From positions 186,001 through 250,000 of the forward strand of contig NZ_JAUEQY010000010.1 of the NCBI RefSeq assembly GCF_030406325.1: 64,000 nt of DNA. The letters run 5' to 3'. Source of the DNA: Actinomadura sp. DC4 (GTDB lineage: Bacteria > Actinomycetota > Actinomycetes > Streptosporangiales > Streptosporangiaceae). The translations under genes were made by a program, and so were the position numbers. The notes beneath the pieces are model-generated. The model made no database searches. It was given only the letters and a program-made list of their open reading frames with translations, and was not told where the DNA came from. Positions 37,451-61,722 of this stretch are shown one piece after another. Numbering within the stretch: the first letter of the stretch is position 1; each line of letters starts with the position of its first letter.

Positions 37451-39199
37451 ATGGAGTACCCGTCCATTCAGGCGTCTTTCGCCGCGCAGGTGGAGCGGAC
37501 GCCGGACGCGGTGGCCGTGATCTCGGGCGACGTCCGGTTGACCTACCGGGAGCTGGACGAGCGGGCCAACCGGCTCGCGCACCGGCTGCTCGGCCTGGGG
37601 ATCGAGCCGGAGGCGCCGATCGCGATCCTCATGGAGCGGTCGGTCAACGTGGTCGTCGCGATCCTGGCCTCGGTCAAGGCCGGCGGCTGCTACCTGCCGC
37701 TGCACAGTGCTTACCCGGTCGAACGCATGCAGTGGATCATGGACCAGGCCAAGGCGCCCGTGCTGCTCGCCGACGACGCCGAGCGCGACCTGCCCAAGAG
37801 CGATCAGCTCGTCAACGTCGACACCGAACCGGCCGGCGCCCCGGCGCACGACCCCGGGGTCATCGTCCACCCGGACCACCTCGCGTACGTGATGTACACC
37901 TCGGGCTCGACGGGCCACCCGAAGGGCGTGGCGATCACCCATCGCGGCGTGCTGTCCCTCGCGCTGGACCGGTGCTGGGGCACCCGCCGCCACGAGAGGG
38001 TGCCGATGGTCGCCCCGCACGCCTTCGACGTCTCGACGTACGAGCTGTGGGTGCCGCTGCTGCACGGCGGACGCGTCGTCCTGGCGCCGCCCGGCGACCT
38101 GGAGATCGACACCCTGCACCGCCTCATCGTGGAGGAGGAGATCACCGGCCTGCACCTGACCGCCGGGCTCTTCCGCGTCGTGACCGAGGAGGCACCGGAG
38201 TTTCTGGCCGGGGTGCGCGAGGTGATGACCGGCGGGGACGTCGTCTCACCGGCCGCCGTACGCCGGGTGCTGGAGGCGTGCCCGGACCTCGTCGTGCGGG
38301 CCCTGTACGGGCCGACCGAGTCGACGCTGTTCACCACGCAGTCGGCCATCACGGCGCCGTACGAGGCGCGCCCGACCGTGCCGATCGGCCGCGCGATGGA
38401 CGACGTCCGCACGCACGTCCTGGATGAGGAGCTCCGGCCGGTTCCCGACGGCGAGACCGGCGAGCTGTACATCGCCGGCGACCGCCTGGCGCGCGGCTAC
38501 GTCGGCCGCGCCGACCTGACCGCCGAGCGCTTCGTCGCCGACCCGTTCGGCGAGCCCGGAGCGCGGATGTACCGCACCGGCGACCTCGTCCGCCAGACCT
38601 CCGACGGGCTGCTGGACTTCGCCGGCCGTACGGACGACCAGGTGAAGATCCGCGGATTCCGGGTGGAGCTGGCCGAGGTCGAGTCGGTGCTCATGGAACA
38701 TCCGGGCCTGGCCGACATCGCCGTGCTGCCCCAGGACCTGGACTCGGGGGAGAAGGTGCTCACCGCGTACGTGGTGGCCGCCTCGGACGACCTGGACGTC
38801 GCGTCCCTGCGCGGCCACGCGTCGGCGGCGCTGCCGGACTACATGGTGCCGGCGGCGTTCGTCGTGCTGGACACCCTGCCGCTGACCCCCAACGGGAAGC
38901 TCGACCGCAAGGCGCTGCCCCGGCCCGACCTGCGGGCCCTGTCCTCGCACCGGCCGCCGCGCGACGCCACGGAGGAGAGGCTGTGCGGCCTCTTCGCGGA
39001 GGTGCTCGGCGTCGGCGAGGTGGGGATCGAGGACGACTTCTTCGAGCTGGGCGGCCAGTCGCTGCTGGCGATGCGGCTGATCCGGCGCATCCGCGCGACG
39101 TTCGGCGTCGCGCTGGCGGTCGAGACGCTGTTCGACAGCCCAACGGTGGCGGGCCTGGCCGGGCGGTTCGACGCCCCGGCCGCCGACCTGGGGGCCTGA
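37451..39199 (+). CDS. Stand-alone NRPS A-PCP didomain, predicted specificity Hpg
   Basis: 582 aa. Adenylation core motifs: YTSGSTGHPKG (149-159), AFDVSTYELW, ALYGPTES, MYRTGDLV and NGKLDRK (Lys483). Carrier domain with phosphopantetheine site ELGGQSLL (Ser537). Aligned by hand to PheA numbering, the pocket residues are D193, V194, Y197, H235, M259, G261, L285, L293, F294 and K483 (DVYHMGLLFK). This shares the D..H.GLL.K frame of Hpg codes such as DIFHLGLLCK. With hmaS, hpgT, mbtH and an Hmo-like gene beside it, loading of Hpg is the best reading. There is no C or TE domain. The free condensation enzyme at 44070 may unload it. Confidence 0.92.
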   Translation: MEYPSIQASFAAQVERTPDAVAVISGDVRLTYRELDERANRLAHRLLGLGIEPEAPIAILMERSVNVVVAILASVKAGGCYLPLHSAYPVERMQWIMDQAKAPVLLADDAERDLPKSDQLVNVDTEPAGAPAHDPGVIVHPDHLAYVMYTSGSTGHPKGVAITHRGVLSLALDRCWGTRRHERVPMVAPHAFDVSTYELWVPLLHGGRVVLAPPGDLEIDTLHRLIVEEEITGLHLTAGLFRVVTEEAPEFLAGVREVMTGGDVVSPAAVRRVLEACPDLVVRALYGPTESTLFTTQSAITAPYEARPTVPIGRAMDDVRTHVLDEELRPVPDGETGELYIAGDRLARGYVGRADLTAERFVADPFGEPGARMYRTGDLVRQTSDGLLDFAGRTDDQVKIRGFRVELAEVESVLMEHPGLADIAVLPQDLDSGEKVLTAYVVAASDDLDVASLRGHASAALPDYMVPAAFVVLDTLPLTPNGKLDRKALPRPDLRALSSHRPPRDATEERLCGLFAEVLGVGEVGIEDDFFELGGQSLLAMRLIRRIRATFGVALAVETLFDSPTVAGLAGRFDAPAADLGA

Positions 39200-39202
39200 C
39201 GC

Positions 39203-40414
39203 GTGACCCAGCGCCGCCTGCCCCGCGCCGGCGAGCTCGCGCGGATCCTGCGCCCGCGCCCGCCGACGCTCGACGCCACCCGGCGCCGGCTCGCCCGCGC
39301 GCACACGATCGCCGACCTGCGCGCCGTCGCGCGGCGGCGGGTGCCGCGCGCGGTGTTCGACTACACCGACGGCGCGGCCGAGATGGAGGAGAGCCTGCGC
39401 CGGGCGCGGCAGGCGTACCGGAGGGTGGAGTTCCACCCCAACGTGCTGCGCGGGGTGTCCGGCGCCGACCCGGGGACCGACATCCTCGGGCGGCGCTCGG
39501 AACTCCCGTTCGCCCTGGCCCCCACCGGTCTGACCCGGATGATGCACCACGAGGGGGAGCGCGCCGTCGTACGGGTGGCGCAGCGGGCCGGCGTCCCGTA
39601 CGCGCTGTCCACGATGGGCACCACCTCCATCGAGGACGTCGCGGCGGCCGGGCCGGAGGCGCGCAGGTGGTTCCAGCTCTACGTCTGGCGGGACCGTGCC
39701 GCGGGGCGCGACCTGATGGACCGGGCCCGCCGCGCCGGCTACGACACCCTCATCCTCACCGTGGACACGCCGGTCGCGGGCGCGCGGCTGCGCGACGCGC
39801 GCAACGGCCTGACCATCCCGCCGGCGCTCACGCTCCGGACGTTCCTCGACGGGGCGGCGCACCCGGCCTGGTGGTTCGACCTGTTCACCACCGAGCCGCT
39901 GAGGTACGCCTCGCTGAGTGCCGGGGGCGGCTCCGTGGCCGACCTCATCGACCACGTCTTCGACCCCGACCTCGGCCTCGCGGACCTGGCCTGGATACGG
40001 GAGTCGTGGCCCGGGCGGCTCGTCGTGAAGGGCGTCCAGAACGTCGGCGACGCGCGTGACGTGGTCAAGCACGGCGCCGACGCCCTGGTCCTTTCCAGCC
40101 ATGGCGGCCGTCAGCTCGACCGGGCGCCGGTCCCGCTCGAACTCCTGCCCGCGGTGGCGGAGGCGGTACGCGGCGAGGCCGAGGTCTGGGTGGACACCGG
40201 GATCATGTCCGGCGCGGACATCGTGGCCGCGCTGGCGCGGGGCGCCGACGCCTGCCTGGTCGGCCGGGCCTACCTGTACGGGCTGATGGCCGGCGGGGAG
40301 CGCGGCGTCGCGCGGGCCGTCGACATCCTGCGGGCCGAGATCGTCCGGACCATGCAACTGCTCGGCGTACGGACGGTCGCGGAACTCACCCCGGAGCACG
40401 CGACGCTCCGGTGA
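39203..40414 (+). CDS. hmo: FMN-dependent alpha-hydroxy acid oxidase, probable hydroxymandelate oxidase
   Basis: 403 aa from GTG 39203, 3 bp after the A-PCP stop. Family motifs: YTDGAAEMEESL, LAPTGLTRMMHHEGE, LTVDTPVAGAR, VVKGVQNVGDA and LSSHGGRQLDRAP (catalytic His; the family usually has SNHGGRQLD). The length is nearer to LldD2-type lactate dehydrogenases than to short glycopeptide Hmo, but the position in the operon supports oxidation of 4-hydroxymandelate to 4-hydroxybenzoylformate, the missing step between HmaS and HpgT. Confidence 0.83.
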   Translation: MTQRRLPRAGELARILRPRPPTLDATRRRLARAHTIADLRAVARRRVPRAVFDYTDGAAEMEESLRRARQAYRRVEFHPNVLRGVSGADPGTDILGRRSELPFALAPTGLTRMMHHEGERAVVRVAQRAGVPYALSTMGTTSIEDVAAAGPEARRWFQLYVWRDRAAGRDLMDRARRAGYDTLILTVDTPVAGARLRDARNGLTIPPALTLRTFLDGAAHPAWWFDLFTTEPLRYASLSAGGGSVADLIDHVFDPDLGLADLAWIRESWPGRLVVKGVQNVGDARDVVKHGADALVLSSHGGRQLDRAPVPLELLPAVAEAVRGEAEVWVDTGIMSGADIVAALARGADACLVGRAYLYGLMAGGERGVARAVDILRAEIVRTMQLLGVRTVAELTPEHATLR

Positions 40415-40490: not shown

Positions 40491-41774
40491 GTGCGAGTCC
40501 TGTTCATTCCGTGTGCCCATAGATCGCATCTCTATCTGTCGGTTCCCATGGCCTGGGCGTTACGTGGCGCGGGCCACCAGGTGTTCGTCGCCAGCGTGCC
40601 CGATCCCGGCCTGACCACGGAGGATGTCACGAGCACCGGCCTGACCTCGGTGTCGGTCGGCGAGCCGGTGAACATCGGAGAAATGGCGCAGGAAGAGGCG
40701 TCGAAAATAGCGCCGGTCGTACCGCCCGCGACGGAACCCGGCCGCAAGACGGTGCAGGCGGATTACTCGAACTGCGATGTCCGGGTCGAGCTGGAGCAGA
40801 TGGCGCGGATCTATCCGGTCGTGTTCAGCTCCAAGTCGATGGTGGACGAGCTCATCGCCTTCGCCGCCGAATGGCGGCCGGATCTCGTGGTCTGGGACCA
40901 CCTGATGATGTTCGCCGGCCCGGCGGTCGCCAAGGCCTGCGGCGCGGCCAACGCGCGCCTCGTCTACTGCCCGGACTCGGTGGCGCAGCTGCGCATCGCG
41001 TACCGGGAGCGGTACGGGAGCCCGGACCCCATCGAGAAGGGGGTCCGCGACCGGTTCGCCGACTTCGGCCTTGACTTCGACCCCTCGATGACCGACGGCG
41101 ACTTCACCATCAACACCATGCCGCCCTGGACGTGGCGGCCGGCCGGGCAGCACTACCTGAACGTACGGCCGATGTCGTTCAACGGCCCGTCCGCGGTGCC
41201 GAAGTGGCTGCACGAGCAGCCGGCGCGCCGCCGGATCTGCATCACGCTCGGGCTGACCTCGCGGGGCGTGCACTCCAACATCCCCTCGGTCGAGAACCTC
41301 TTCGCCGCGGTGGCCGGCCTCGACGTCGAGGTGATCGCCACGCTCGCGCCGGAGAGCGTCGCGGACCTGCCGGGCATCCCGGACAACGTGCGGGTGGTGG
41401 AGTTCGTCCCGATGAACACGCTGCTGGCGACCTGCTCGGCGATCCTGCACCACGGCGGCGCCGGCACGGTGTTCTCGGCGCTGGAGCACGGGATCCCGCA
41501 GATCATCCTGCCGAGCACGTTCGCGAACGAGAAGTTCTGGGGTCAGGTCGGCCATGCCGAGGGCCTGGAGAACCAGGGTGCCGGGATCTACGTGGACACC
41601 TCGCGTCCCGTGACCGCCGGGGAGCTGCGCGACCACCTGGTTCGGGCGCTGGACGACCCGTCGTACGCGCGGAACGCGGCCCGGCTCCGCACGGAGCTGC
41701 TGGAGATGCCCGCGCCGAACGACGTCATCCCCGCCCTGACCAGGCTGACCGCCGAACACCGCGCCGCCGCGTGA
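40491..41774 (+). CDS. GT1-family glycosyltransferase (macrolide/DesVII-like)
   Basis: 427 aa from GTG 40491, chosen for TTGGAGG eight bases upstream; the N-terminus VRVLFIPCAHRSHLY then matches the family. The donor-site motif HHGGAGTVFSALEHGIPQIILP lies at about residues 323-344. Such enzymes transfer deoxy- or aminosugars from dTDP donors to secondary metabolites. It is the only cytosolic glycosyltransferase in the window and is likely to use a sugar from the 51-62 kb genes. It carries a TTA codon at codon 24. Its stop lies in the first unit of the 9-bp repeat array. Confidence 0.9.
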   Translation: MRVLFIPCAHRSHLYLSVPMAWALRGAGHQVFVASVPDPGLTTEDVTSTGLTSVSVGEPVNIGEMAQEEASKIAPVVPPATEPGRKTVQADYSNCDVRVELEQMARIYPVVFSSKSMVDELIAFAAEWRPDLVVWDHLMMFAGPAVAKACGAANARLVYCPDSVAQLRIAYRERYGSPDPIEKGVRDRFADFGLDFDPSMTDGDFTINTMPPWTWRPAGQHYLNVRPMSFNGPSAVPKWLHEQPARRRICITLGLTSRGVHSNIPSVENLFAAVAGLDVEVIATLAPESVADLPGIPDNVRVVEFVPMNTLLATCSAILHHGGAGTVFSALEHGIPQIILPSTFANEKFWGQVGHAEGLENQGAGIYVDTSRPVTAGELRDHLVRALDDPSYARNAARLRTELLEMPAPNDVIPALTRLTAEHRAAA

Positions 41775-43286: not shown

Positions 43287-43360
43287 CGCGCGGTGGAGCA
43301 GTTCGGTAGCTCGTAGGGCTCATAACCCTGAGGTCGCCGGTTCAAATCCGGCTCGCGCCA
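43287..43360 (+). tRNA. Initiator tRNA-fMet(CAU)
   Basis: A 74-nt cloverleaf with anticodon CAT at 43321-43323. Initiator marks can be read: the first acceptor pair is a C1xC72 mismatch, the anticodon stem has three G:C pairs (GGG/CCC), and the D stem is GAGC/GCTC with A11:T24. T arm GCCGG-TTCAAAT-CCGGC. The discriminator is A, and no CCA is encoded. It lies inside the biosynthetic cluster, followed by a hairpin. Confidence 0.93.
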
Positions 43361-44069: not shown

Positions 44070-45443
44070 TCAGGCGAGTTTCAGCGGGGACTCCGGGGCG
44101 GCCACCGCAGTGCGCAGCAGGCGGCTGAAGTGGCCTTCCATCGCGCTCATCGAGCTCTGGTCGAAGCGGTTCCGGCGGAACTGCAGGTGCCCGATCAGGT
44201 CGCCGTCCGGGTGCAGGTTCAGCGTCCAGAGCACGCCGTCCGGGACGTCGCAGCCGACCGGCTGGGAGATCAGGCGGCGGCGCAGCTCGTCGTAGCGCAG
44301 GTCGCCGACCAGCTCCCCGCCGAGCGCGAACGGGAACGGGAAGATCTGGAACACGCAGGGGGCGAGGTTCTCGTCCTCCGCGGGGTTCATCAGCTCCGGG
44401 GCCTCTTCGAGGATCTGCACGAACGGGATGTCGTGCGTGTAGCTCTCGACGCAGGTACGGCGCGTGCGCTCCAGCACGTCGAGGAAGGTCCGGCAGCCTC
44501 CGATGTCCGTACGGAGCGGCAGGAAGTTGAACATCGGGCCGACCGTGTCCTCGAACCGGTCGGCGTCGCGGCCGGGCGTGAACGTCGGCACGACGATGTC
44601 GGTGGCCCCGGTCATCTGGTTGATCATGAGTTCGAGGGCGCCGAGCACGACCATGAACGGGGTGCTGCGCGTCGCCTTGGCCAGGCGCCGGGCGGACGTG
44701 ATGACGTCGGTGGTGACCAGGTGCCGGTGCACCGACGTGTACTTCGGCGCGCCGGTCGTCACCGGCCGGTCCGTGGGCAGGGCCCAGATCTGGGCGTCCC
44801 GCAGCTTCTCCCGCCAGTACTTGCGCGAGGCGCCGACCGCCGGCGTGTCCAGGTTCGCCCGCTGCCAGGTGGTGTACTCCCGGTACTGCCGCGGCTCCTC
44901 CAGCGGCTCGCCGAGCCCCTTGCGCCGGGCGTACAGGGCGGTGAGGTCGCGCATGATGACCCGCATCGACCAGCCGTCGGTGACGGTGTGGTGCGCCTGG
45001 AGGATGAGGAACGAGTCGTTCTCGTCGAACCGCGTGAGGACGGCCCGTACGTGCGGCTGCCGGTGGATGGCGAACGTCGTGGACTCGATCTCGATGGTGA
45101 GCTCTTCGGCCCGGCGGTCGCGGTCCTCCGGCGCGACGGGCAGGTCGCGGACGGTCAGCTCCGGCGGGCTCGGTGGCAGCACCTCCTGGTACTGCTCCTC
45201 GCCGTCGAGGACGATCTCGGTGCGCAGCATCTCGTGCCGCACGACCAGGTCGTCCAGCGCCGCGCGCAGCGTGTCGACGTCCACCGCCCCGGTGACGCGC
45301 CAGCCGTGGACCAGGTGGTTCCGGGGGCCGAACTGGCCGTCGGCGTCCCCCTCCTCGAACATGTAGGTGAAGTCCTGGTTGCAGGAGAACGGAATCCGGC
45401 TCACCAGTGCGTCCGGCGAATGCGTGGGCTGATGAACGACCAT
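44070..45443 (-). CDS. Free-standing NRPS condensation enzyme (SgcC5-like)
   Basis: 457 aa, a single condensation domain. The active-site motif HHTVTDG is intact (His151, His152, Asp156), with FTPGRDADRFEDTVGPMFNFLPLR and the later HDIPFVQILE region also typical. Stand-alone C enzymes such as SgcC5 of C-1027 join a carrier-bound aminoacyl group to an alcohol or amine of a separately made core. Here the donor is probably the Hpg-type group on the A-PCP protein. It is the last gene of the minus-strand block, 34 bp after the preceding gene. Confidence 0.88.
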   Translation of the reverse strand: MVVHQPTHSPDALVSRIPFSCNQDFTYMFEEGDADGQFGPRNHLVHGWRVTGAVDVDTLRAALDDLVVRHEMLRTEIVLDGEEQYQEVLPPSPPELTVRDLPVAPEDRDRRAEELTIEIESTTFAIHRQPHVRAVLTRFDENDSFLILQAHHTVTDGWSMRVIMRDLTALYARRKGLGEPLEEPRQYREYTTWQRANLDTPAVGASRKYWREKLRDAQIWALPTDRPVTTGAPKYTSVHRHLVTTDVITSARRLAKATRSTPFMVVLGALELMINQMTGATDIVVPTFTPGRDADRFEDTVGPMFNFLPLRTDIGGCRTFLDVLERTRRTCVESYTHDIPFVQILEEAPELMNPAEDENLAPCVFQIFPFPFALGGELVGDLRYDELRRRLISQPVGCDVPDGVLWTLNLHPDGDLIGHLQFRRNRFDQSSMSAMEGHFSRLLRTAVAAPESPLKLA

Positions 45444-49416: not shown

Positions 49417-50601
49417 CTACATGTAGAGGGTGTTGGGCTCCAGGCCGCACAGGATCCGGCCGTACAGCTCCAGGTTCGTGGCCGGGTGCAGGATCGCGTG
49501 CTGGTTGAGCGTCTGGACGTCGCGCTCGATGCGCTGCATCGGCACGGACTCATAGATCGAGGACGCTCCGCTGGCGTTGTTCAGGATGTCCACGGACTCC
49601 TTCGCCCGCTGGATCGTGTAGGACGCGTCGAGACGGATGCGGGCGCGGTCGCGCAGGGACCACGAGTCCCCGTTGGTGTTCCGGTAGTCCAGCTCGCCGG
49701 CGGCCCGGTGCGCGTGGAAGCGCGCCTCGTCCGCCTTCACCTCGGCCTCGGCGACCTCCAGGTGGGTGATGGGCGCCTCGCTCTGCTTCTCGTACGAGGT
49801 GTAGGTGATCTTCCGGTCGGGCAGCCGCTCGAAGAAGACGTCACGCGCCGCCTCGGCCAGGCCGAGCGCCGTGCCGATGGTCGACGTGCAGGCGGTCAGC
49901 AGCAGCGGCCCGCGGTAGACCGGGTTGTCGCGGTTGCGCTCGGAGGCGTACTGCTCGTGCAGCATGCCGCCCATGGGCTGGACGCGGTGGGCCGGGATGA
50001 ACAGGTCCTGCGCGACGGTGGACACGCTGCCGCTGCCCCGGAGGCCGGCGGTGTGCCAGTCGTCGATGATCTGCAGGTCCGACATCGGCACCAGCGCCAT
50101 GATCGGCGCCATCTGGCCGTCGGGCATGGGCGCGATCGCGACGAGCTCGTTCCACTGGCTGTGCAGGGAGCCGGTGTTGAAGGCCCACTTGCCGTTGACG
50201 ACGTAGCCGCCGTCCGTGGGGGTGGCCATGCCGGTCGGGCTCAGCAGGCCGCAGACCCGGACGTCCGGCGTGGAGAACACCTCGTCCTGGACCTCGTCCG
50301 GGAAGAGGCCGACCAGCCAGTTGCAGATCGACCAGACCGCGGCGGTCCAGGCGGCCGAGGCGTCGCCGCGGCCGACCTGGGTGAGCACGTCGACGAGCGT
50401 GCGCATGTCGGCCTCGTAGCCGCCGTAGCGCGCGGGCACCCGAAGCTTGAAGATGCCGGCGTCGGCCATCGCCTCGATCGACTCTTCGTGCAGGCGCCGG
50501 TTCTCCTCGGCCCAGGGCGCCTTCTCCTGGAGATGCGGGACCAGGTCCGCCGCGCGGCGGACGAGTTCCGGCTTGGACGGGGCATCAATGATTTCGGTCA
50601 T
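49417..50601 (-). CDS. Acyl-CoA dehydrogenase-fold flavin monooxygenase
   Basis: 394 aa. VPARYGGYEADMRTLVDVLTQVGRGDASAAWTA, VVNGKWAFNTGSLHSQWNELVA, DDWHTAGLRGSGS and a C-terminal bundle with LNNASGASSIYES match the HsaA/HpaC2-like oxygenase group. It is related to the protein at 45478, and the two could form sequential or alternative oxygenation steps. It lies between the SgcJ-like gene and the flavin epoxidase gene, all on the minus strand. The substrate is unknown. Confidence 0.82.
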   Translation of the reverse strand: MTEIIDAPSKPELVRRAADLVPHLQEKAPWAEENRRLHEESIEAMADAGIFKLRVPARYGGYEADMRTLVDVLTQVGRGDASAAWTAAVWSICNWLVGLFPDEVQDEVFSTPDVRVCGLLSPTGMATPTDGGYVVNGKWAFNTGSLHSQWNELVAIAPMPDGQMAPIMALVPMSDLQIIDDWHTAGLRGSGSVSTVAQDLFIPAHRVQPMGGMLHEQYASERNRDNPVYRGPLLLTACTSTIGTALGLAEAARDVFFERLPDRKITYTSYEKQSEAPITHLEVAEAEVKADEARFHAHRAAGELDYRNTNGDSWSLRDRARIRLDASYTIQRAKESVDILNNASGASSIYESVPMQRIERDVQTLNQHAILHPATNLELYGRILCGLEPNTLYM

Positions 50602-50626: not shown

Positions 50627-51034
50627 TCACTTGGGGCTGTTCTGGTACGTGGCCAGGCTCCACTCGCCGTCGCGCTTGACGACCACCCAGGAGGCGCGGA
50701 TGGTGTCCTCGGGCGCGAGCTCCGTGGCGCCGGCCGCGATCACGCCGCCCTCGGTGACCATGACCGCGGACTCGTCGCTCAGGAACTGCAGCTCCAGCGG
50801 AGAGCCGGTGACCGAGGTGTCCTTGTACGGCCCGGCGAACGCCTGGCTCATGAAGGCGCGGATGTCCTTCCGGCCCTTCTGGTAGACACCCGGAAGGATC
50901 ATGGTTCCGTCCTCGACGAAGAGCCGGGAGAAAGCGTCGGCGTCGTGCTCGGCCCACGCCGCGACGAGGCGTCCGGGGAGGGCCGCTATGGCGGCCATCT
51001 CCGCGTCGGCGGGGGCTTTTGCCTTGGTGGCCAT
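50627..51034 (-). CDS. SnoaL/NTF2-fold protein, SgcJ/EcaC-like
   Basis: 135 aa from ATG 51034. It contains RLVAAWAEHDADAFSRLFVEDGTMILPG, KGRKDIRAFMSQAF and SWVVVKRDGEWSLATYQNSP, the SgcJ/EcaC variant of the NTF2-like fold. Members occur as small enzymes or binding proteins in enediyne and other clusters, but are also widespread. It is the first gene of the minus-strand block and lies 119 bp downstream of the tRNA-Leu-like gene on the same strand. Confidence 0.82.
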   Translation of the reverse strand: MATKAKAPADAEMAAIAALPGRLVAAWAEHDADAFSRLFVEDGTMILPGVYQKGRKDIRAFMSQAFAGPYKDTSVTGSPLELQFLSDESAVMVTEGGVIAAGATELAPEDTIRASWVVVKRDGEWSLATYQNSPK

Positions 51035-51153
51035 GCGCGTTTCCTCACTGTAGGGAATGACAATTCGGTGACGCTCCGGACGAGGGTCGCATCCGGCTTC
51101 GCCGGGTCGCATCTCCCAAACTGCGACCACGGTGCGCGGGCGCCCTCACCGAG

Positions 51154-51226
51154 TGCCCCCGGTTGGACTCGAACCAACACCTGAACCCTTTTAAGGGGCT
51201 TGCCTCTGCCACTGGGCCACGGGGGC
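51154..51226 (-). tRNA. tRNA-Leu(UAA)-like gene without the long variable arm
   Basis: A 73-nt cloverleaf. Acceptor GCCCCCG/CGGGGGC (7 perfect pairs), discriminator A73, no CCA encoded. D stem GCC/GGC with a C13:A22 mismatch. Anticodon stem AGCCC/GGGTT around loop CTTAAAA, giving anticodon TAA (51193-51191), which reads UUA. T arm GTTGG-TTCGAGT-CCAAC. The variable region is only CAGGT. Bacterial tRNA-Leu is class II with a long variable arm, so identity is uncertain. The acceptor, the TGGC after it, A73 and the loop all look leucine-like. No other in-register fold of the anticodon arm works. Confidence 0.75.
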
Positions 51227-51382
51227 ACGATAAGGATTTACTCGAATTCACTTACGGCAGCGTGACATCGGCATCGCCGACGATGCATCTCCGAGATTGT
51301 GCGGCCGATCGGCGCGGCTCTCAGCACGGCAGGAGAAGTATTCACCGCGCGCGCGAGGGAGTATTCATGACCGAGGTGATTC

Positions 51383-52114
51383 ATGTACATCATTGGGAAC
51401 GGCCTCATCGCCCGAGCCCTGCGGCCGTTACGCGACCGGCACTCCGGCGTGACCGTGCTCGCGGCGGGCCTGCCGGGCCACCATCTGCCCGAGTCCGAGA
51501 ACGCCCGCGAGGCGGCGCTGGTCCGGGAGACGATCGCGCGCTGCCGCGCGGGCGGGCATCAGCTGGTGTTCTTCTCCACGACCAGCATGTACGGCGGTCC
51601 GGGTAACAACGGCCGTGAGGACGAACCGGTCATTCCCTCCACCGCGTACGGGCGGCACAAGTTCGACCTGGAGACGCTGATCCGCGACGAGGGAGTCGAC
51701 CACCTGATCCTGCGGCTGACCCAGGTGGTCGGCCCGGAAGAGCCCGACTTCCGGCTGTTACCGACGTTGATGAAACAGCTCGCGACGGGCGGCATCCAGG
51801 TTCATCGCCACGCGCGCCGCGACCTGCTCTACATCGACGATTTCGTCACGGTCGTCGACGGGCTTCTCAGCACCCGGCCGATGAATGAGGTGGTGAACGT
51901 CGCCTCGGGCGAATGCGTGCCGGTCGGGCAGATCATCGACCATCTGGCGGAACGCCTCGGCATCACCGCCGAACGGCAGGTTGTCGACGACGGAATCGCC
52001 TACTGTTCATCGATCGCGAAACTACGGGCGACCGTTCCCGAGGTCGCCGGAATCGATTTCTCGCCGGGTTACTACAAACGCGTCATCGACCGCTATCTGA
52101 AGGACGGCCGATAA
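51383..52114 (+). CDS. NAD(P)-dependent sugar 4-ketoreductase/epimerase (EvaE-like)
   Basis: 243 aa, short for the epimerase/dehydratase family. N-terminal nucleotide-binding motif MYIIGNGLIARAL, catalytic YGRHK (YxxxK) and FSTTSMYGG. It fits the dTDP-4-keto-6-deoxyhexose 4-reductases of aminodeoxysugar pathways. It is followed by a candidate nitrososynthase (stop and start overlap in TAATG) and a sugar-type O-methyltransferase. It has two TTA codons (codons 16 and 126) and starts 157 bp from the UUA-reading tRNA-like gene, on the opposite strand. Confidence 0.8.
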   Translation: MYIIGNGLIARALRPLRDRHSGVTVLAAGLPGHHLPESENAREAALVRETIARCRAGGHQLVFFSTTSMYGGPGNNGREDEPVIPSTAYGRHKFDLETLIRDEGVDHLILRLTQVVGPEEPDFRLLPTLMKQLATGGIQVHRHARRDLLYIDDFVTVVDGLLSTRPMNEVVNVASGECVPVGQIIDHLAERLGITAERQVVDDGIAYCSSIAKLRATVPEVAGIDFSPGYYKRVIDRYLKDGR

Positions 52115-53376
52115 TGTCCACTTATCTCGCCGGCAACACGCCCTGGCCGCTGAGCGTCCCGGTCACCCCGGAGGGCCGCCGGCTGCTCGATCTGGTCGCC
52201 GGGCAGCTGCCGGAGATCGCGGCCTCCGCCGCCGACAACGACCGCGACGGGACCTTTCCCTACGCCACGTTCGAGCGCTTCCGTGACAGCGGAGTGATGG
52301 GCGCGACGGTCCCCGCCGAGCTCGGGGGCCTCGGCGTCAGCCGCCTCTACGACGTCGCCGCCGCGCTGCTCGCCGTCTCGACCGCCGACGCCTCCACGGC
52401 ACTGGCGCTCCACATGCAGTTCAGCCGCGGCCTGACCCTCACTTACGAATGGCGGCACGCCGAACCCGGCGCCCAGGTCCTCGCCGAGGGGCTCATGCGG
52501 GAGATGGGCGCGGGCAAGGCCGCGGTCTGCGGGGCGGCCAAGGACCACCCGTCCTCCACGACCACGCTCGTCCCCGACGGCACCGGCGACTGGATCCTGT
52601 CGGGCCGCAAGACGCTCGTCAGTATGGCCCCGATCGGGACGCACTTCGTCGCGCACGCCTCCGCGCTCACCGGGGCGCGGACACCGCGGCTCGCGGCCCC
52701 GATCGTGCCGCGCGACACCCCCGGCGTCACCGTGCTGGACAACTGGCAGGGGCTCGGCATGCGCGCCTCGGGCACCGTCGACGTCATCTTCGACGAGTGT
52801 CACGTGCCCGACCGCAACGTCTTCGTCCGCGATCCCGTCGGCGCGCGCAACGACGCCGTCCTCGCCGGTCAGACCGTGAGCTCCATCACCATGCTCGGCA
52901 TCTACCTGGGCATCGCCCAGGCCGCGCGTGACTCCACCGTCGAGACGCTCAGGGGAAAGTCCGGCGAGCCGCCGGCCGGCGCCCGAACGCTCATCTCCCA
53001 CATCGACGCCAACCTCTACACGCTGCACGCCACCGTCGCCGCCGCGCTCACCAACGCCGACACCTACTCGGCCGACCTGTCCGGCGACATGGACGAGCGC
53101 GGCCGGCGGATGATGCTGCCCTACCAGTACGCCAAGCTCACGATCAACGAGCTGGCGCCGGCCATCGTCAACGACTGCCTCGCCGTCACCGGCAGCCGGG
53201 CGTACGCCACCACCCACGACCTGTCCCGCCTCTACCGCGACGTACGGGCCGGGACCTTCATGCAGCCCTACACCTACAGCGACGCCGTCAACTTCCTCAG
53301 CGCGCAGACGCTCGGCCTCGACCAGGACAACAACTACATGAGCGTCCGAGCCGCGAAGTCCGCCCCGACGACCTGA
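52114..53376 (+). CDS. Acyl-CoA dehydrogenase-fold flavin enzyme, candidate amino-sugar nitrososynthase
   Basis: 420 aa from ATG 52114, overlapping the ketoreductase stop. Motifs: VPAELGGLGVSRLYDVAAALLAVSTADASTALALHMQFS, WILSGRKTLVSMAPIGTHFVAHA, LDNWQGLGMRASGT and a C-terminal helical bundle (MQPYTYSDAVNFLSAQTLGLD). It differs from the two paralogues at 45478 and 49417. Its setting between a 4-ketoreductase and a MycE-like methyltransferase matches the KijD3/RubN8/DnmZ/ORF36 group, which oxidise the 3-amino group of dTDP-3-amino-3-C-methyl sugars to nitroso or nitro. Function is inferred from fold and context. Confidence 0.75.
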   Translation: MSTYLAGNTPWPLSVPVTPEGRRLLDLVAGQLPEIAASAADNDRDGTFPYATFERFRDSGVMGATVPAELGGLGVSRLYDVAAALLAVSTADASTALALHMQFSRGLTLTYEWRHAEPGAQVLAEGLMREMGAGKAAVCGAAKDHPSSTTTLVPDGTGDWILSGRKTLVSMAPIGTHFVAHASALTGARTPRLAAPIVPRDTPGVTVLDNWQGLGMRASGTVDVIFDECHVPDRNVFVRDPVGARNDAVLAGQTVSSITMLGIYLGIAQAARDSTVETLRGKSGEPPAGARTLISHIDANLYTLHATVAAALTNADTYSADLSGDMDERGRRMMLPYQYAKLTINELAPAIVNDCLAVTGSRAYATTHDLSRLYRDVRAGTFMQPYTYSDAVNFLSAQTLGLDQDNNYMSVRAAKSAPTT

Positions 53377-53395: not shown

Positions 53396-54568
53396 GTGAG
53401 TGCCGGCATCGACACGACGAGCATTCTCGAGGCACTGATCCCCGCCGTGCCGGGCGCGCTTCCGGACAGGGTGCGCGAGATCGGCCTCCCTCTGACCGCG
53501 GCGGCGCTCGTCGACGAGCTCGTCCACCGCTGTGACCCGCCCGCGCGGAGCGGCGGCGTCGACATCCACCTGCGGGTCACCTCCGGCCCGGAGTCCGCCG
53601 ACTACGTCGTGGCGTTCGGCGATGAGACGGTCGCGGCCGAGCCCGGCGTCCCCGAGGAGCCGTGGGCGCGGGTGGAGTTCACCGCGGAGAACCTCGCCAA
53701 GGCGCTGTTCGGCCGTCCCGGTCCGATCAACACCGGCGCCTGGCGGCACGAGGCGCTGCAGCTCATCGGCCCGGACACCCCGCCCGGGGAGATCCCGGAG
53801 CTGCTGAAGGTGCAGGAGGGCGCGATGCGCGCGAACGACGCGCTGCTCGCCGCCTGCAGCCCGCACCGGCCGAGCCTGAACGAGCTCGCGAGCCGCTTCG
53901 GGACCGACAAGTGGGGCTCGGTGCACTGGTACACCCCGTACTACGAGCGCCACTTCTCCGCGTTCGCGGACGAGGAGGTACGGGTGCTGGAGATCGGCAT
54001 CGGCGGCTACCACGACCTGGAGTCGGGCGGCTCCTCGCTGCGGATGTGGCAGCGGTTCTTCCGCCGCGGGATCGTCCACGGCCTGGACGTGTACGAGAAG
54101 CGCCTCGACACCCCGCGGGTCCGTACGATCCAGGGCGACCAGTCGGACCGGGACTTCCTGCGGAGGATGAGCGAGGAGCACGGGCCGTTCGACATCGTCG
54201 TGGACGACGGCAGCCACTTCAACCGGGACGTGCTCGCGTCCTTCGACGCGCTGTTCCCGCTGCTGAAGGAGGGCGGTATCTACGCGATCGAGGACCTGCA
54301 GACCGCGTACTGGCCGAGCTGGGGCGGGGACGATCGGGACACGGCCGCGCCCACGACCTCGATCGGGTTCTTGAAGAAGCTCATCGACGGGCTGTACCAC
54401 CGGGAGTACGAGGCCGGAAAGCCGTCCTACCTGGACGAGAACGTCATGGGGCTGTACTTCTACCACAACCTCGCGTTCGTGCTGAAGGGCGCGAACAACG
54501 AGTGCGGCGCGCCGGCCGTGGTGCGCGAGACGCCTCCGGACTACATCCCCGGCGGCGAGGAGGAATAG
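53396..54568 (+). CDS. MycE/TylE-like sugar O-methyltransferase
   Basis: 390 aa from GTG 53396, preceded by AAGGAGGG. The N-terminal ~150 residues form the auxiliary domain of the MycE group. The C-terminal SAM domain has LNELASRFGTDKWGS, VRVLEIGIGGYHD and IVVDDGSHFN (metal-binding acidic pair). MycE-type enzymes methylate hydroxyls of glycosyl groups in a metal-dependent way. It probably methylates the nitro or amino sugar (4-O-methyl as in evernitrose or rubranitrose) or another attached sugar. Confidence 0.87.
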   Translation: MSAGIDTTSILEALIPAVPGALPDRVREIGLPLTAAALVDELVHRCDPPARSGGVDIHLRVTSGPESADYVVAFGDETVAAEPGVPEEPWARVEFTAENLAKALFGRPGPINTGAWRHEALQLIGPDTPPGEIPELLKVQEGAMRANDALLAACSPHRPSLNELASRFGTDKWGSVHWYTPYYERHFSAFADEEVRVLEIGIGGYHDLESGGSSLRMWQRFFRRGIVHGLDVYEKRLDTPRVRTIQGDQSDRDFLRRMSEEHGPFDIVVDDGSHFNRDVLASFDALFPLLKEGGIYAIEDLQTAYWPSWGGDDRDTAAPTTSIGFLKKLIDGLYHREYEAGKPSYLDENVMGLYFYHNLAFVLKGANNECGAPAVVRETPPDYIPGGEEE

Positions 54569-56511: not shown

Positions 56512-57897
56512 ATGACGGTCCACACGCTGCTGAAGCCCCGCCACGACGGCGCGTTACCCGGGCGGGTCTCCGCCTCGGCCGCCGCGGTCGACGAGGGCGC
56601 CGGCACGCTCACCGAGGACTTCGCCGGCTGGCTCGCCGAGCAGGGCCGCGCGGCGCGGTTCCGGGTGGACCGCATCCCGTTCGCCGAGCTCGACGGCTGG
56701 TCGTTCGACTCCGAGACGGGCAACCTCGCCCACCGCAGCGGCCGGTTCTTCACCGTCGAGGGCCTGGACGTCGTCGCCGACGGGCCGCGGCCGCGCGCCT
56801 GGCAGCAGCCGATCATGGTGCAGCCGGAGGTCGCCATCCTCGGCGTCGTGGCCAAGGAGTTCGACGGCGTGCTGCATTTCCTCATGCAGGCGAAAATGGA
56901 GCCCGGAAATCCGGGTCTGATCCAGATATCGCCGACCGTACAGGCCACGCCCAGCAATTACACCCGGGTGCACAAAGGCGCCGACGTCAACTACATCGAC
57001 TATTTCATCGAGCCCGGCCGCGGCCGGATCCTCGTCGACGTGCTGCAGTCCGAGGTGGGTTCCCGGTTCCACCACAAGGCCAACCGCAACATGATCGTCG
57101 AGGTCACCGGGGACGTGCCGCTGCGGGACCAGTTCTGCTGGCTCACGGCCGGCCAGATCGGCGCGTTCCTGCGGCGCGACAACGTCATGAACATGGACAG
57201 CCGGTCCATCTTCTCCTGCGTCCCGATGGCGAGCCCGTGGGCGCACGCGCTCCACTCGGACACGGACCTGCTGTCCTGGTTCACCGGCGTACGGTCCCGG
57301 CGGCACGTCCGCGCCACCCGCATCCCGCTGGCCAAGGTCTCGGACTGGGCGCGCGGCGAATGGTCGATCGAGCACGCCGACGAGCGCTACTTCCGCATCG
57401 CTGCGGTGGAGGTGGAGGCCGGAAACCGCGAGGTCACCCACTGGTCGCAGCCGCTCTGCGAGCCGATCGGGCTCGGCGTCAGCGCGTTCGTCGCGTGCCG
57501 GTTCGAGGGGGTCCCGCACCTGCTGGCGCACGCCCGCCCGGAGGCGGGCTTCCTGGACACCGTGGAGTTCGGGCCGACCGTGCAGTACACGCCGGAGGAG
57601 TACGCCGGCCTGCCCGACACCTCCCGCCCGCTCTTCGCCGACCTGGTGCGCGACGCGCCGCCGTCGCGTATCCGCTACGACGCGGTGCTCGCGGAGGAGG
57701 GCGGGCGGCTCCTCAACGCGGAGAGCCGCTACCGGATCGTCGAGATCGACGAGACCGAGGTGCCCTCGCCGCCGCCCCCGGACTACCAGTGGGTCACGCC
57801 CGGCCAGCTGTCCTCGCTCGTCCGGCACGGCCACTACGTCAACGTCCAGGCCCGCAGCCTGCTCGCGGCCTTCACCACCGGGGCCGTGGACTTCTGA
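56512..57897 (+). CDS. NDP-hexose 2,3-dehydratase (EvaA/TylCVI-like)
   Basis: 461 aa. Internal duplication typical of the family: two halves each have a WS/DS...R...G.F..V.G block ([21 protein letters not shown] and [19 protein letters not shown]) and a WxQP block ([16 protein letters not shown] and [18 protein letters not shown]). It removes the 2-hydroxyl of dTDP-4-keto-6-deoxyglucose to give the 3,4-diketo intermediate of 2,3,6-trideoxy sugars. It heads a plus-strand operon running to 62693. It carries a TTA codon at codon 15. Confidence 0.93.
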
Positions 57898-57940: not shown

Positions 57941-59062
57941 GTGCCTACTCGCGTATGGGACTATCTGCCAGAGTACGAAAAGGAACGCGCCGACATCCTC
58001 GACGCGGTCGAGACGGTCATGGAGTCCGGGCAGCTCATTCTCGGCAAGAGCGTGCGCGGTTTCGAGGAGGAGTTCGCGGCCTATCACGGGCTGCCCCACT
58101 GCACCGGCGTCGACAACGGCACCAACGCGGTGAAGCTCGCCCTCCAGGCCCTCGGGGTCGGCCCCGGCGACGAAGTGATCACCGTCTCGAACACCGCGGC
58201 GCCGACCGTGCTCGCCATCGACGGCTGCGGCGCGACGCCGGTGTTCGTGGACGTCCGCGAGGAAGACTTCCTGATGGACACCGGCCAGGTGGCGGCCGCG
58301 ATCACCGGGCGCACCAAGGCCATCGTCCCGGTGCACCTGTTCGGCCAGTGCGTCGACATGGCGCCGATCAAGCGCCTCGCCGCCGAGCACGGCCTGGTCG
58401 TCATGGAGGACTGCGCCCAGGCGCACGGCGCGCGCCACCACGGCGAACTGGCCGGGACCATGGCCGACGCGGGCGCCTTCTCCTTCTATCCCACGAAGGT
58501 GCTCGGAGCGTACGGCGACGCCGGCGCGGTCATCACCCGCGACGAGACGACGCAGGAGAACCTCCAGCGGCTGCACTACTACGGCATGGAGAAGGTCTAC
58601 TACGTCGTGCGGACCCCCGGGCACAACGCCCGGCTCGACGAGTTACACGCCGAGATCCTGCGCCGTAAGCTGGGCCGGCTCGACGAGTACATCGCCGGCC
58701 GCCGCGCGGTGGCCGAGCACTACGTGGACGGCCTCGGCGACCTGGCCGGCTCCCACGGCCTCCTCCTGCCGCGCACCGCCCCGGGCAACGAGCACGTGTA
58801 CTACATCTACGTCGTCCGCCACCCGCAGCGGGACGCGATCCTCGAGCGGCTCAAGGACTTCGACATCCACCTGAACATCAGCTACCCGTGGCCGGTGCAC
58901 ACGATGACCGGCTTCCAGCACCTGGGGCTCGGGAAGGGCACGCTGCCCGTCACCGAGCGGCTCGCCGACGAGATCTTCTCGCTGCCGATGTACCCCTCGC
59001 TGCCGCGGGAGCTGCAGGACCACGTCATCAGCTCCGTACGCAAGGTAGTGACGTCCCTCTGA
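57941..59062 (+). CDS. DegT/DnrJ/EryC1 sugar aminotransferase
   Basis: 373 aa from GTG 57941, chosen for CATTGGAGG 8 bp upstream. PLP motifs: [35 protein letters not shown] (Schiff-base Lys186) and [11 protein letters not shown]. It transfers an amino group to a keto-sugar nucleotide: C-3 in an EvaB-like role, or C-4 of a pentose in a madurosamine-like role. Both pathways are plausible given the neighbouring genes. It has a TTA codon at codon 235. Confidence 0.92.
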
Positions 59063-59089: not shown

Positions 59090-60340
59090 GTGACTGATCG
59101 AGTTGGCCCCGCGCAGGAGGAAAAGGGCCGGTGCCGGGTGTGCGGCGGCGCCGTACACGAGTTCCTGGACCTCGGCCGGAACCCGCTGTCCGACAACTTC
59201 CTGACCGCCGAGAACCTCGGTGATGAGTTCTTCTTCCGGCTCTCCGTCGGATTCTGTGAGTCGTGCACGATGGTGCAGCTCGGCGAGGTGCCGCCGAGGG
59301 AGCGGATGTTCCACGACGACTACCCGTACTACTCCTCCGGCTCCTCGGTGATGCGCAAGCACTTCGAGCAGACCGCACGGGAGTTCCTGGAGACCGAGGC
59401 CACCGGGGACGACCCCTTCATCGTCGAGATCGGCTGCAACGACGGGGTCCTGCTCAAGACCGTCCACGACGCGGGCGTACGGCACCTCGGCTTCGAGCCC
59501 TCCGGCAAGGTCGCCGAGGTGGCGCGGGGCAAGGGCGTACGGGTGACGGGGGACTTCTTCGAGGAGGCCACCGCCGTGGCCGTCCGCGCGGCCGACGGCC
59601 CGGCCGACGTCATCTTCGCGGCCAACACGATCTGCCACATCCCGTACATGGGCTCCATCCTCAAGGGGGTGGACGCGCTGCTCGGGCCCGGTGGCGTCTT
59701 CGTGTTCGAGGACCCGTACCTCGGTGAGATCGTCTCCAAGACCTCCTTCGACCAGATCTACGACGAGCACTGCTTCCTGTTCTCCGCACACTCGGTGGCG
59801 GAGATGGCGCGGCGGCACGGGTTCGCGCTGGTCGACGTCAGGCGGCTGGAGGTGCACGGGGGCGAGATCCGGTACACGCTCGCGCGGGCCGGCGAACGCG
59901 AGCCCACCGCGGACGTGGCGGCGCTGCTCGCCGAGGAGGACGAGCGCGGTCTCACCGACCCGGCGACGCTGAAGGGCTTCGCCGCGAAGGTCGTCGAGAT
60001 CAAGGACACCCTGGTCACGCTGCTGCGCCGGCTGAAGGACGAGGGCCGTACGGTCGTCGCCTACGGCGCGACGGCCAAGAGCGCCACCGTGACGAACTTC
60101 TGCGGCATCGGCCCCGACCTGGTCTCCTTCGTCTGCGACACGACGCCGGCCAAACAGGACCGGCTCTCGCCGGGCGCGCACATCCCCGTACGTCCCGCCT
60201 CGGCGTTCTCCGACCCGTACCCGGATTACGCGCTGCTGTTCGCCTGGAACCACGCCGAGGAGATCATGGCGAAGGAGCAGGACTTCCGCCGGTCCGGCGG
60301 GCGCTGGATCCTCTACGTGCCGAAAGTCCGCGTGGTCTGA
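59090..60340 (+). CDS. NDP-sugar C-methyltransferase (EvaC/TylCIII-like)
   Basis: 416 aa from GTG 59090, following TAGGAGAA. N-terminal zinc site CRVCGG and FCESC, then the SAM domain FIVEIGCNDGVLL with FAANTICHIPYM, and the C-terminal Methyltransf_14 domain with VVAYGATAKSATVTNFCGI. This three-domain layout is diagnostic of C-3 methyltransferases that make vancosamine-, mycarose- or kijanose-type branched sugars from the 4-keto intermediate. It implies a branched sugar in the product. Confidence 0.94.
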   Translation: MTDRVGPAQEEKGRCRVCGGAVHEFLDLGRNPLSDNFLTAENLGDEFFFRLSVGFCESCTMVQLGEVPPRERMFHDDYPYYSSGSSVMRKHFEQTAREFLETEATGDDPFIVEIGCNDGVLLKTVHDAGVRHLGFEPSGKVAEVARGKGVRVTGDFFEEATAVAVRAADGPADVIFAANTICHIPYMGSILKGVDALLGPGGVFVFEDPYLGEIVSKTSFDQIYDEHCFLFSAHSVAEMARRHGFALVDVRRLEVHGGEIRYTLARAGEREPTADVAALLAEEDERGLTDPATLKGFAAKVVEIKDTLVTLLRRLKDEGRTVVAYGATAKSATVTNFCGIGPDLVSFVCDTTPAKQDRLSPGAHIPVRPASAFSDPYPDYALLFAWNHAEEIMAKEQDFRRSGGRWILYVPKVRVV

Positions 60341-60369: not shown

Positions 60370-61722
60370 ATGAAATTCTTATTGGACGGCGGAAAACCGA
60401 GCGTTGCCGTCGTGGGCTTCGGCTACGTGGGATCGACGGTGGCCGCGGTGCTGACCGACTGCGGGCTGAGCGTGACCGGAATCGACACCGACGAGCGCCT
60501 GATCCAGGAGATGCAGACCGACTACTGCCGGTTCAACGAGCCGGGGCTCGCGGAGATGCTGCGCGACGCGCGCCGGGACGGGCGACTCGAGCTCACCACC
60601 CGGTACGAGGCGACGCGGCAGGCCGACGTCATCATCATCACGGTCGGCACGCCCGTGGACGCGAACCGGTCGCTCGTGACGCGCTACCTGGAGTCGGTCT
60701 GCGACTCGCTGGCCCCGCTGCTCCGGCAGGGTCAGCTGATCATCCTCAAGAGCACGGTCGCGCCGGGGGCCACGAACGGACTCGTCCGGGAGCTCCTGGA
60801 GAGGGGCGGACTCCGGCAGGGCCGCGACTTCGGGCTGGCCTTCTGCCCCGAGCGTCTCGCCGAGGGTGCGGCGATCAGCCAGTTCCGCGCCCTGCCGATC
60901 GTGGTCGGCGGCTGTGACGACGAGAGCGCCGACGCGGCCCGCAGGTTCTGGACCGGCGCGCTGGGCGTCGACGTGGACGTCTTCGCGCGGCCCGAGGTCG
61001 CCGAGCTGATCAAGCTCGCCGACAACTCCTGGATCGACGCCAACATCGCGCTGGGCAACGAGCTCGCCGCGCTGTGCGGGGCGCTCGGCGTGGACGTGCT
61101 CGACGTGATCTCCGGCGCGAACTCGCTGCCGAAGGGCGACAGCCACGTCAACATCCTGCTGCCCAGCGTCGGGGTCGGCGGCTCCTGCCTGACGAAGGAT
61201 CCGTGGATCCTGTGGAACCTCGCCCAGGAGCACGGCGTGCGCATGCGTCTCGTGGAGACCGCGCGCCAGGTGAACGACACGATGCCCGCCTACACCCACG
61301 GCCTGATCCGCGCCGGCCTGGCCGACCTGGGAAAGGACCCGGCGACGGCGAAGGTGGCCGTGCTCGGGCTCGCGTACAAGAACAACACCAACGACCTGCG
61401 CCACACGCCCGTACGGCCGGTGGTCGAGGCGCTGCGGGCCGACGGTGCCCAGATCTCGATCTACGACCCGCTGATCGCGGCGAACGAGGCGGAGGCGGAG
61501 TTCGGGGTGAAGCCGTCGCCGAGCCTGGAGGACGCGGTCCGCGACTGTGACTGCGTCGCGGTCCTGGCCGGCCACGAGGCCTTCGAGGGGCTCGACTTCA
61601 CCGACCTCGCGCGGCGGGTGTCGATGCCGTGCCTGATCGTCGACGGCCGCGCCTACTACTCCAAGGAGACGATCAGGTCGCTCCAGGAGACCGGCTTCAC
61701 CTACCGAGGCATTGGACGCTGA
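60370..61722 (+). CDS. UDP-glucose/GDP-mannose dehydrogenase family enzyme (CalS8/MdpA1-like role)
   Basis: 450 aa. Rossmann start VAVVGFGYVGSTVAAVLTDCG, TVGTPVD, STVAPGATN, central LIKLADNSW (Lys215) and the catalytic thiol loop GVGGSCLTKD (Cys273). It oxidises a sugar nucleotide C-6 alcohol to the acid in two NAD+-dependent steps, giving for example UDP-glucuronate. With the next gene it could lead to UDP-pentose, as for the calicheamicin aminopentose or madurosamine. Codon 4 is TTA. Confidence 0.92.
   Translation: MKFLLDGGKPSVAVVGFGYVGSTVAAVLTDCGLSVTGIDTDERLIQEMQTDYCRFNEPGLAEMLRDARRDGRLELTTRYEATRQADVIIITVGTPVDANRSLVTRYLESVCDSLAPLLRQGQLIILKSTVAPGATNGLVRELLERGGLRQGRDFGLAFCPERLAEGAAISQFRALPIVVGGCDDESADAARRFWTGALGVDVDVFARPEVAELIKLADNSWIDANIALGNELAALCGALGVDVLDVISGANSLPKGDSHVNILLPSVGVGGSCLTKDPWILWNLAQEHGVRMRLVETARQVNDTMPAYTHGLIRAGLADLGKDPATAKVAVLGLAYKNNTNDLRHTPVRPVVEALRADGAQISIYDPLIAANEAEAEFGVKPSPSLEDAVRDCDCVAVLAGHEAFEGLDFTDLARRVSMPCLIVDGRAYYSKETIRSLQETGFTYRGIGR

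Follow-up and report, generated by a model that had tools for sequence, protein, structure and literature searches.

Extra and UUA-reading tRNA genes in actinomycetes

The bldA-dependent control of UUA codons is the classic gate on Streptomyces antibiotic genes. bldA is the single housekeeping class II gene of streptomycetes and acts on many genes. The switch is described as a tRNA-Leu(UAA) that is tied to TTA-bearing antibiotic genes (PMC6662830). The tRNA gene analysed in this work lies in a 64,000-nucleotide stretch of DNA from Actinomadura sp. DC4, the whole of which is referred to as the window. Like bldA, it reads UUA, the rarest of the leucine codons, and is accompanied by TTA-bearing genes of antibiotic type in a G+C-rich actinomycete. 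Unlike bldA, however, it belongs to class I, is an extra gene and is located inside the very cluster that it may serve.

A second precedent is the tRNA-Asp-AUC gene of a desert Streptomyces, an extra tRNA gene for which a stimulation of antibiotic production has been shown by experiment. It reads the common GAU codon. Both this gene and the window tRNA are extra genes, but the flanks of tRNA-Asp-AUC are traced by its authors to an integrative element of old age and not to a biosynthetic cluster (PMC9262613).

With respect to structure, the housekeeping class I tRNA-Leu(UAA) of Nonomuraea gerenzanensis has the same fold and is 86 % identical to the window tRNA. In the Streptosporangiaceae this housekeeping gene occupies a locus that is conserved across genera, whereas the window copy is found elsewhere. 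The tRNA-Leu(UAA) of Karimac-type Streptomyces phages is also of class I with a UAA anticodon (77–78 % identity), but it sits among phage tRNA genes while the window copy resides in a biosynthetic cluster. A search of titles and abstract beginnings in the open PMC literature, which leaves subscription papers mostly outside, revealed neither a cluster-borne UUA tRNA nor a class I bacterial tRNA-Leu.

Identity and structure of the tRNA gene

On the minus strand, ARAGORN calls a tRNA-Leu(taa) at 51153-51226, and the Rfam model RF00005 matches 51226-51154 over all 71 model positions with 57.1 bits, compared to a gathering score of 29; the covariance-model check for a pseudo-tRNA thus favours a genuine gene. 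Direct reading gives the acceptor GCCCCCG/CGGGGGC, A73, the anticodon loop CTTAAAA (i.e., U33), a variable loop of five bases and no encoded CCA. The cloverleaf, TAA anticodon, acceptor, A73, anticodon loop and 5-nt variable loop reported by an earlier, sequence-only reading are all confirmed. When 33 selected UUA tRNAs of class I (32 of them distinct) are aligned, 99.4 % of the cells in the 20 cloverleaf pairs are paired. Changes on both sides are seen in 15 of these pairs, a level that none of 500 shuffles equalled, and this covariation makes a pseudogene unlikely. The window tRNA keeps the positions that are invariant across the 33 aligned relatives (among them T8, G10-A14, A22-C25, T34-A37 and A73), which includes retention of A14 as well as A73. 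Folded by energy as a lone strand, it has no cloverleaf minimum (z -0.88), and no sigma-70-type promoter was found around it in 50950-51450. The window gene is a real accessory tRNA whose shape is ordinary for its clade and whose place and company are unusual.

The short variable loop had initially been considered odd for a UUA tRNA. This does not hold: class I is the usual state in the order and is common in phage contigs, and the loop as such is therefore rejected as a novelty. The genome yields 67 Rfam tRNA matches, at which ARAGORN identifies four tRNA-Leu(TAA) genes, all of class I and 74–77 bases long (Table 1), so that the window tRNA is not the only UUA decoder. The TAG and CAA leucine tRNAs are likewise short, and for CAG and GAG there is one long gene each plus shorter copies in an array on contig C34.

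A class II UUA tRNA was sought and not found in this genome, which is 98 % complete. Among 60 relatives a class II TAA pattern has matches in 14 genomes, of which nine look real by eye, all outside the order; one match (G057) is of the bldA kind. An order-wide pattern search produced no real class II UUA tRNA by eye among the matches listed. The UUA patterns do miss some genes, since in four (G009, G021, G023 and G036) of the 37 genomes that represent the family in the 60-genome set none of the three gave a real-looking tRNA by eye. The contrast with class II bldA drawn at the outset does not apply to the order of this organism: where a normal bldA tRNA was expected, the class II form is not found and a class I UUA tRNA with C33 is present.

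The array on C34 (G000:C34:94641-95810) comprises 13 tRNAs and looks like an accessory set. By eye, the D-arms of several of them are odd, and short-variable-loop Leu(CAG) and Leu(GAG) are included as well as one Cys call with the anticodon ACA. Unusual D-arms were also noted by eye in a three-tRNA array (G000:C48:6574-6878), and a lone tRNA-like gene (G000:C98:283968-284039) is called Cys(ACA).

Two forms of the UUA tRNA

Class I UUA tRNAs of the order come with one of two anticodon loops, CTTAAAA (U33) or CCTAAAA (C33). The C33 form is present in all eight genomes of the genus. In the genome studied here it corresponds to the C56 copy, and shared genes place this copy with the housekeeping loci of relatives. 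In other genera, U33 and C33 genes have common flanks and hence represent one locus in two states. The window copy, on the other hand, is away from the conserved housekeeping locus and stands alone in the shared-gene grouping. It is an extra U33 gene of a kind found in one of the eight genomes of the genus and in none of the seven others, and its nearest relatives, 90 % identical at best, are U33 genes of other genera.

In a group of 40 genomes (g71), inspection by eye of the matches listed shows a C33 gene in each genome and no real-looking U33 gene, the two pattern hits in G144 not being tRNA-like; C33 alone is therefore viable. In a second group (g81), the source of most loci described below, a U33 class I UUA gene is seen by eye in 40 of 65 genomes among the matches listed, at least two of them at the housekeeping locus. 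For the C33 gene of this group only pattern counts are available, with a match in 63 of the 65 genomes among the matches listed and noise present. Two kinds of UUA tRNA, with GCCCCCG and GCCCCGG acceptors, both occur in clusters; the latter falls near CAA tRNAs in a tree that is poorly resolved.

U33 is near-universal in tRNAs. In many genomes of the order (e.g., at G000:C56:158044-158118, L049/L170), the standard UUA tRNA carries C33 instead. For an entire bacterial group, this would be an uncommon natural exception to the rule.

The biosynthetic cluster around the tRNA

The placement of the tRNA within a biosynthetic cluster is correct: it lies between a SnoaL-like and an epimerase-like gene, and nitrososynthase, deoxysugar and NRPS genes are found beyond these (Table 1). 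Members of the SnoaL-like family also occur in another tRNA-bearing locus (L436).

Table 1. Features of the window and tRNA-Leu(TAA) copies elsewhere in the genome (contig:positions).
Feature	Position	Strand	Remarks
Class I tRNA-Leu(UAA), candidate accessory UUA decoder	51154..51226	-	ARAGORN, Rfam, direct read, alignment
Second U33 tRNA-Leu(TAA) copy	C39:9766-9838		ARAGORN
Third U33 tRNA-Leu(TAA) copy	C31:129883-129958		ARAGORN
C33 tRNA-Leu(TAA) copy	C56:158044-158118		ARAGORN
Cytochrome P450	29001..30074	+	TTA codon 72 (29214)
Hydroxymandelate synthase / hydroxyphenylpyruvate dioxygenase family (HmaS or HPPD)	32388..33476	-	TTA codon 4 (33467)
HpgT-like aminotransferase	33759..35060	-	49 % identity with aminotransferase half of L431 fusion
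NRPS A-PCP protein	37451..39199	+	
FMN-dependent hydroxyacid dehydrogenase, HmO-like	39203..40414	+	40 % to C39 copy; role inferred from company
EryCIII-like glycosyltransferase	40596..41774	+	
Stand-alone condensation domain	44070..45443	-	
Flavin hydroxylase like XiaF and 3-HSA hydroxylase (acyl-CoA dehydrogenase fold)	49417..50601	-	
SnoaL-like gene	50627..51034	-	119 bases 3' of tRNA, same strand
Epimerase-like gene	51383..52114	+	157 bases 5' of tRNA, divergent; TTA codons 16, 126 (51428, 51758)
Nitrososynthase-like	52114..53376	+	Best PDB chains 3m9v, 4kcf ~5e-166; 3mxl 'Nitrososynthase' 9.5e-160
MycE-like O-methyltransferase	53396..54568	+	
NDP-hexose 2,3-dehydratase	56512..57897	+	TTA codon 15 (56554)
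DegT/DnrJ/EryC1 aminotransferase	57941..59062	+	TTA codon 235 (58643)
Sugar C-methyltransferase-like	59090..60340	+	
UDP-glucose dehydrogenase-like	60370..61722	+	TTA codon 4 (60379) if first start used

The HmaS/HPPD-family protein of the window is 51 % identical to its counterpart in the second tRNA-bearing cluster, on C39. The NCBIfam cut-off for 4-hydroxyphenylpyruvate dioxygenase is passed by both 'HmaS-like' proteins. The top PDB chain carries the same name and is followed by PCZA361.1, a hydroxymandelate synthase. Their assignment as HmaS thus relies on their company with HpgT- and HmO-like genes. By sequence, the window HmaS/HPPD-family, HpgT-like and HmO-like genes would fit a supply of hydroxyphenylglycine. 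The window contains a second tRNA gene, called by ARAGORN as tRNA-Met(CAT) at 43287-43360 (+), with initiator features by eye (C1 facing C72, A11-T24 and a GGG/CCC anticodon stem); it is alike at 63 of 74 positions to the genome's other initiator-like gene.

The C39 copy belongs to a glycopeptide-like cluster, where it is flanked by a Na/H exchanger gene and an HmO-like gene. The same stretch encodes chorismate mutase, DAHP synthase, an HmaS/HPPD-family protein and a FAD halogenase, and it includes a very long NRPS gene. SARP and LAL regulator genes are found near the third U33 copy, on C31.

Extra U33 genes in relatives

A U33 class I pattern is present in 53 of 58 chosen genomes searched. 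Forty extra-gene loci were studied, 39 from this search and one from the 60-genome set; genomes with a usual-looking U33 gene (G123, G124, G218, G225, G234, G235, G239, G319-G321 and G343) were left out, as were chance-looking patterns, the G263, G276, G291 and G302 rows and the second G296 row. ARAGORN confirms 39 of the 40 and does not call L462. Loci that are related to each other are not independent.

Eighteen of the 40 loci could be placed in biosynthetic clusters, so that the search for homologues in related clusters, proposed with the earlier reading, does reveal similar genes in other clusters. Hydroxyphenylglycine/dihydroxyphenylglycine (Hpg/Dpg)-type genes are found in 12 of the 18 (DpgA in L445 and DpgC in L431 pass NCBIfam cut-offs). 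Iterative PKS genes occur in L436 and L463 (the latter placed by Pfam), modular PKS genes in L442 and L454, and a 2,3-dehydratase in L435, while L425 was counted as a cluster owing to genes in common with L463. In many of the Hpg/Dpg-type loci the tRNA adjoins HmaS-, HmO- or HpgT-like genes or LAL regulators. The remaining 22 were not placed in clusters (L428 and L430, with weak marker matches, are counted here). Families that were typed in L440 as aromatic amino-acid lyase and FBP_C recur in five of these loci, and L433 and L452 fall into one group with the housekeeping locus. Residence in a cluster is consequently not required. The figure of 18 of 40 is a description and not an enrichment test, because the marker queries were partly taken from the loci tested; in 26 control segments of the own genome, marker matches were limited to one weak NRPS and one SARP.

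The tRNA as a conserved part of nitrososynthase clusters was also considered. A search of genome contigs with the nitrososynthase gave four loci, with one close relative, in Micromonospora rubida (61 %). Of the 26 non-own matches in 345 genomes, 20 neighbourhoods of 8.5 to 20 kb were examined; none contains the tRNA, and the idea is rejected.

TTA codons in tRNA-bearing clusters

The window cluster has seven TTA codons in six of 29 genes, all between 29 and 61 kb, and the genes in the left 28.8 kb of the window have none. In the first 34.8 kb of C39, 11 of 20 genes contain exactly one TTA, as against four of 60 genes in the remaining 78 kb. The controls are 26 of 40 own-genome segments, from which C39, C31, the C56-tRNA segment, three segments right of the window and C6:146001-166000 (L382) were excluded; here TTA is found in 11 of 439 genes (Fisher 2.6e-4 for the window, 2.3e-11 for C39). 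When all fetched segments except C39 are taken in (34 segments, 27 of 551 genes by hand summation), the difference persists (p 0.004 for the window, 3e-9 for C39). Per 10,000 codons, TTA occurs 6.5 times in the window and 10.5 times in C39 versus 0.8 times in the controls. Import of low-G+C DNA is not supported as the cause, since codons ending in A or T are rarer in both clusters (5.1 % in the window, 5.8 % in C39) than in the controls (6.7 %). The frequency of CTA, compared in the same way, is not raised in either cluster. TTA enrichment in the two own clusters goes beyond base composition.

A comparable picture emerges from the relatives, where the 18 cluster loci have 48 TTA in 98,580 codons and the 22 remaining loci have 11 in 109,904 (Mann-Whitney 2e-4). 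Many of these codons are early, although this excess depends on predicted gene starts: the first 30 codons harbour 22 of 48 TTA in the cluster loci (3.9 expected), 5 of 11 in C39 (1.2 expected) and 4 of 7 in the window (0.6 expected), of which one may fall outside its gene, as a TTG start at codon 5 of 60370..61722 would drop the TTA. The corresponding values are 3 of 11 (2.0 expected) in the 22 other loci and 1 of 11 (1.1 expected) in the own-genome controls.

The 20 tRNA-less nitrososynthase neighbourhoods, with two TTA in 30,626 codons in g81 and 19 in 78,682 in the others, are poorer in TTA than the tRNA-bearing clusters. Six Dpg neighbourhoods from Streptomyces, Embleya and Nonomuraea (of 14 records), near which no Leu tRNA was found, speak against a simple rule: they have 20 TTA in 62,889 codons (3.2 per 10,000). 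This would fit hosts that have a good UUA gene elsewhere, the housekeeping gene of Nonomuraea being a case in point. TTA can also accumulate in the own genome in stretches that lack the tRNA: C31:100000-119999 contains five at 10 kb from a UUA tRNA, and C6:146001-166000, C34:400000-419999 and C67:100000-119999 have three each and no UUA tRNA. Outside both clusters and C39, 33 of the 34 own-genome 20-kb segments have 0–3 TTA and one has five.

A probable cluster-resident UUA decoder and its alternatives

The sequence-only reading had offered three interpretations, and the one that the evidence favours is that of a cluster-borne extra UUA decoder. The window gene probably acts as an accessory decoder resident in the cluster, where it would enhance the translation of genes with TTA codons. 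LeuRS would charge it, and the C33 tRNA would read UUA poorly or be scarce. Once the cluster is switched on, the extra tRNA would lift the block at its TTA codons, and the cluster would thus carry its own bldA-like translational licence and not depend on that of the host. The tRNA might be cut from the transcript of the leftward SnoaL-like and hydroxylase genes, given that it is positioned just ahead of them on the same strand and that no sigma-70-type promoter was found; at other loci the tRNA is oriented differently. More generally, clusters in a clade whose standard UUA tRNA lacks U33 would carry their own U33 UUA tRNA together with early TTA codons, as a translational switch that is autonomous to the cluster and moves with it. 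We advance this extension tentatively, as a possibility somewhat short of probable, the more so as the C33 gene of g81 is known from pattern counts.

The most serious alternative, although an unlikely one, is that UUA tRNA genes, which often duplicate and are moved by phages and integrative elements, in some cases land in clusters, which are themselves mobile, and have no cluster-specific role there. Such genes do abound in phages: at least 81 tRNA-Leu(TAA) genes of 73–78 bases are found among 80 viral-contig loci listed (L235-L314), and class I tRNA-Leu(UAA) occurs in 24 phage records. Of these, 23 belong to Streptomyces phages, and the 19 listed show the identity to the window tRNA given above for the Karimac type. 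The 22 loci not placed in clusters and the patchy presence in the genus point in the same direction. Against a passive passenger stand the TTA enrichment of clusters with the tRNA, which is weaker in comparable clusters without it, and the proximity to HmaS-, HmO-, HpgT-like or LAL genes in many Hpg/Dpg-type clusters. In addition, the 40 of 55 predicted window ORFs that were scanned gave no match to a phage or integrase family.

It is less probable still that the extra U33 tRNA offsets a weak C33 UUA tRNA genome-wide, its cluster location simply reflecting where acquired DNA sits. The frequency of U33 genes in g81, some at the housekeeping locus, agrees with such a supplement, as does g71, where C33 occurs alone and is viable. 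However, with so few TTA codons in nearly all other own-genome segments, the two clusters (7 and 11 TTA) would be the main beneficiaries.

The use of the tRNA as an aminoacyl donor for a tRNA-dependent ligase of the pathway, another of the original interpretations, is very improbable: the cluster does have stand-alone NRPS parts, but aminoacyl-tRNA-using families (cyclodipeptide synthase, Fem ligase, lantibiotic dehydratase) are without match in the 40 of 55 window ORFs scanned, and the anticodon loop retains the form found in tRNAs that decode. Resistance to anticodon nucleases has been proposed for phage tRNAs, and the phage relatives and a loop unlike the C33 loop of the genus would suit a decoy or nuclease-resistant spare, but this too is highly implausible, as nuclease families have no match among the scanned neighbours (the same 40 of 55 ORFs) and the association with TTA-rich clusters is not predicted.

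Returning to the preferred reading of an accessory decoder, clusters of this type may bring their own translation switch. If this is true, the decoder would be one of the cluster's own genes. Some failed transfers of clusters between hosts could then be explained, and the addition or removal of one tRNA gene would be a simple lever for silent clusters.
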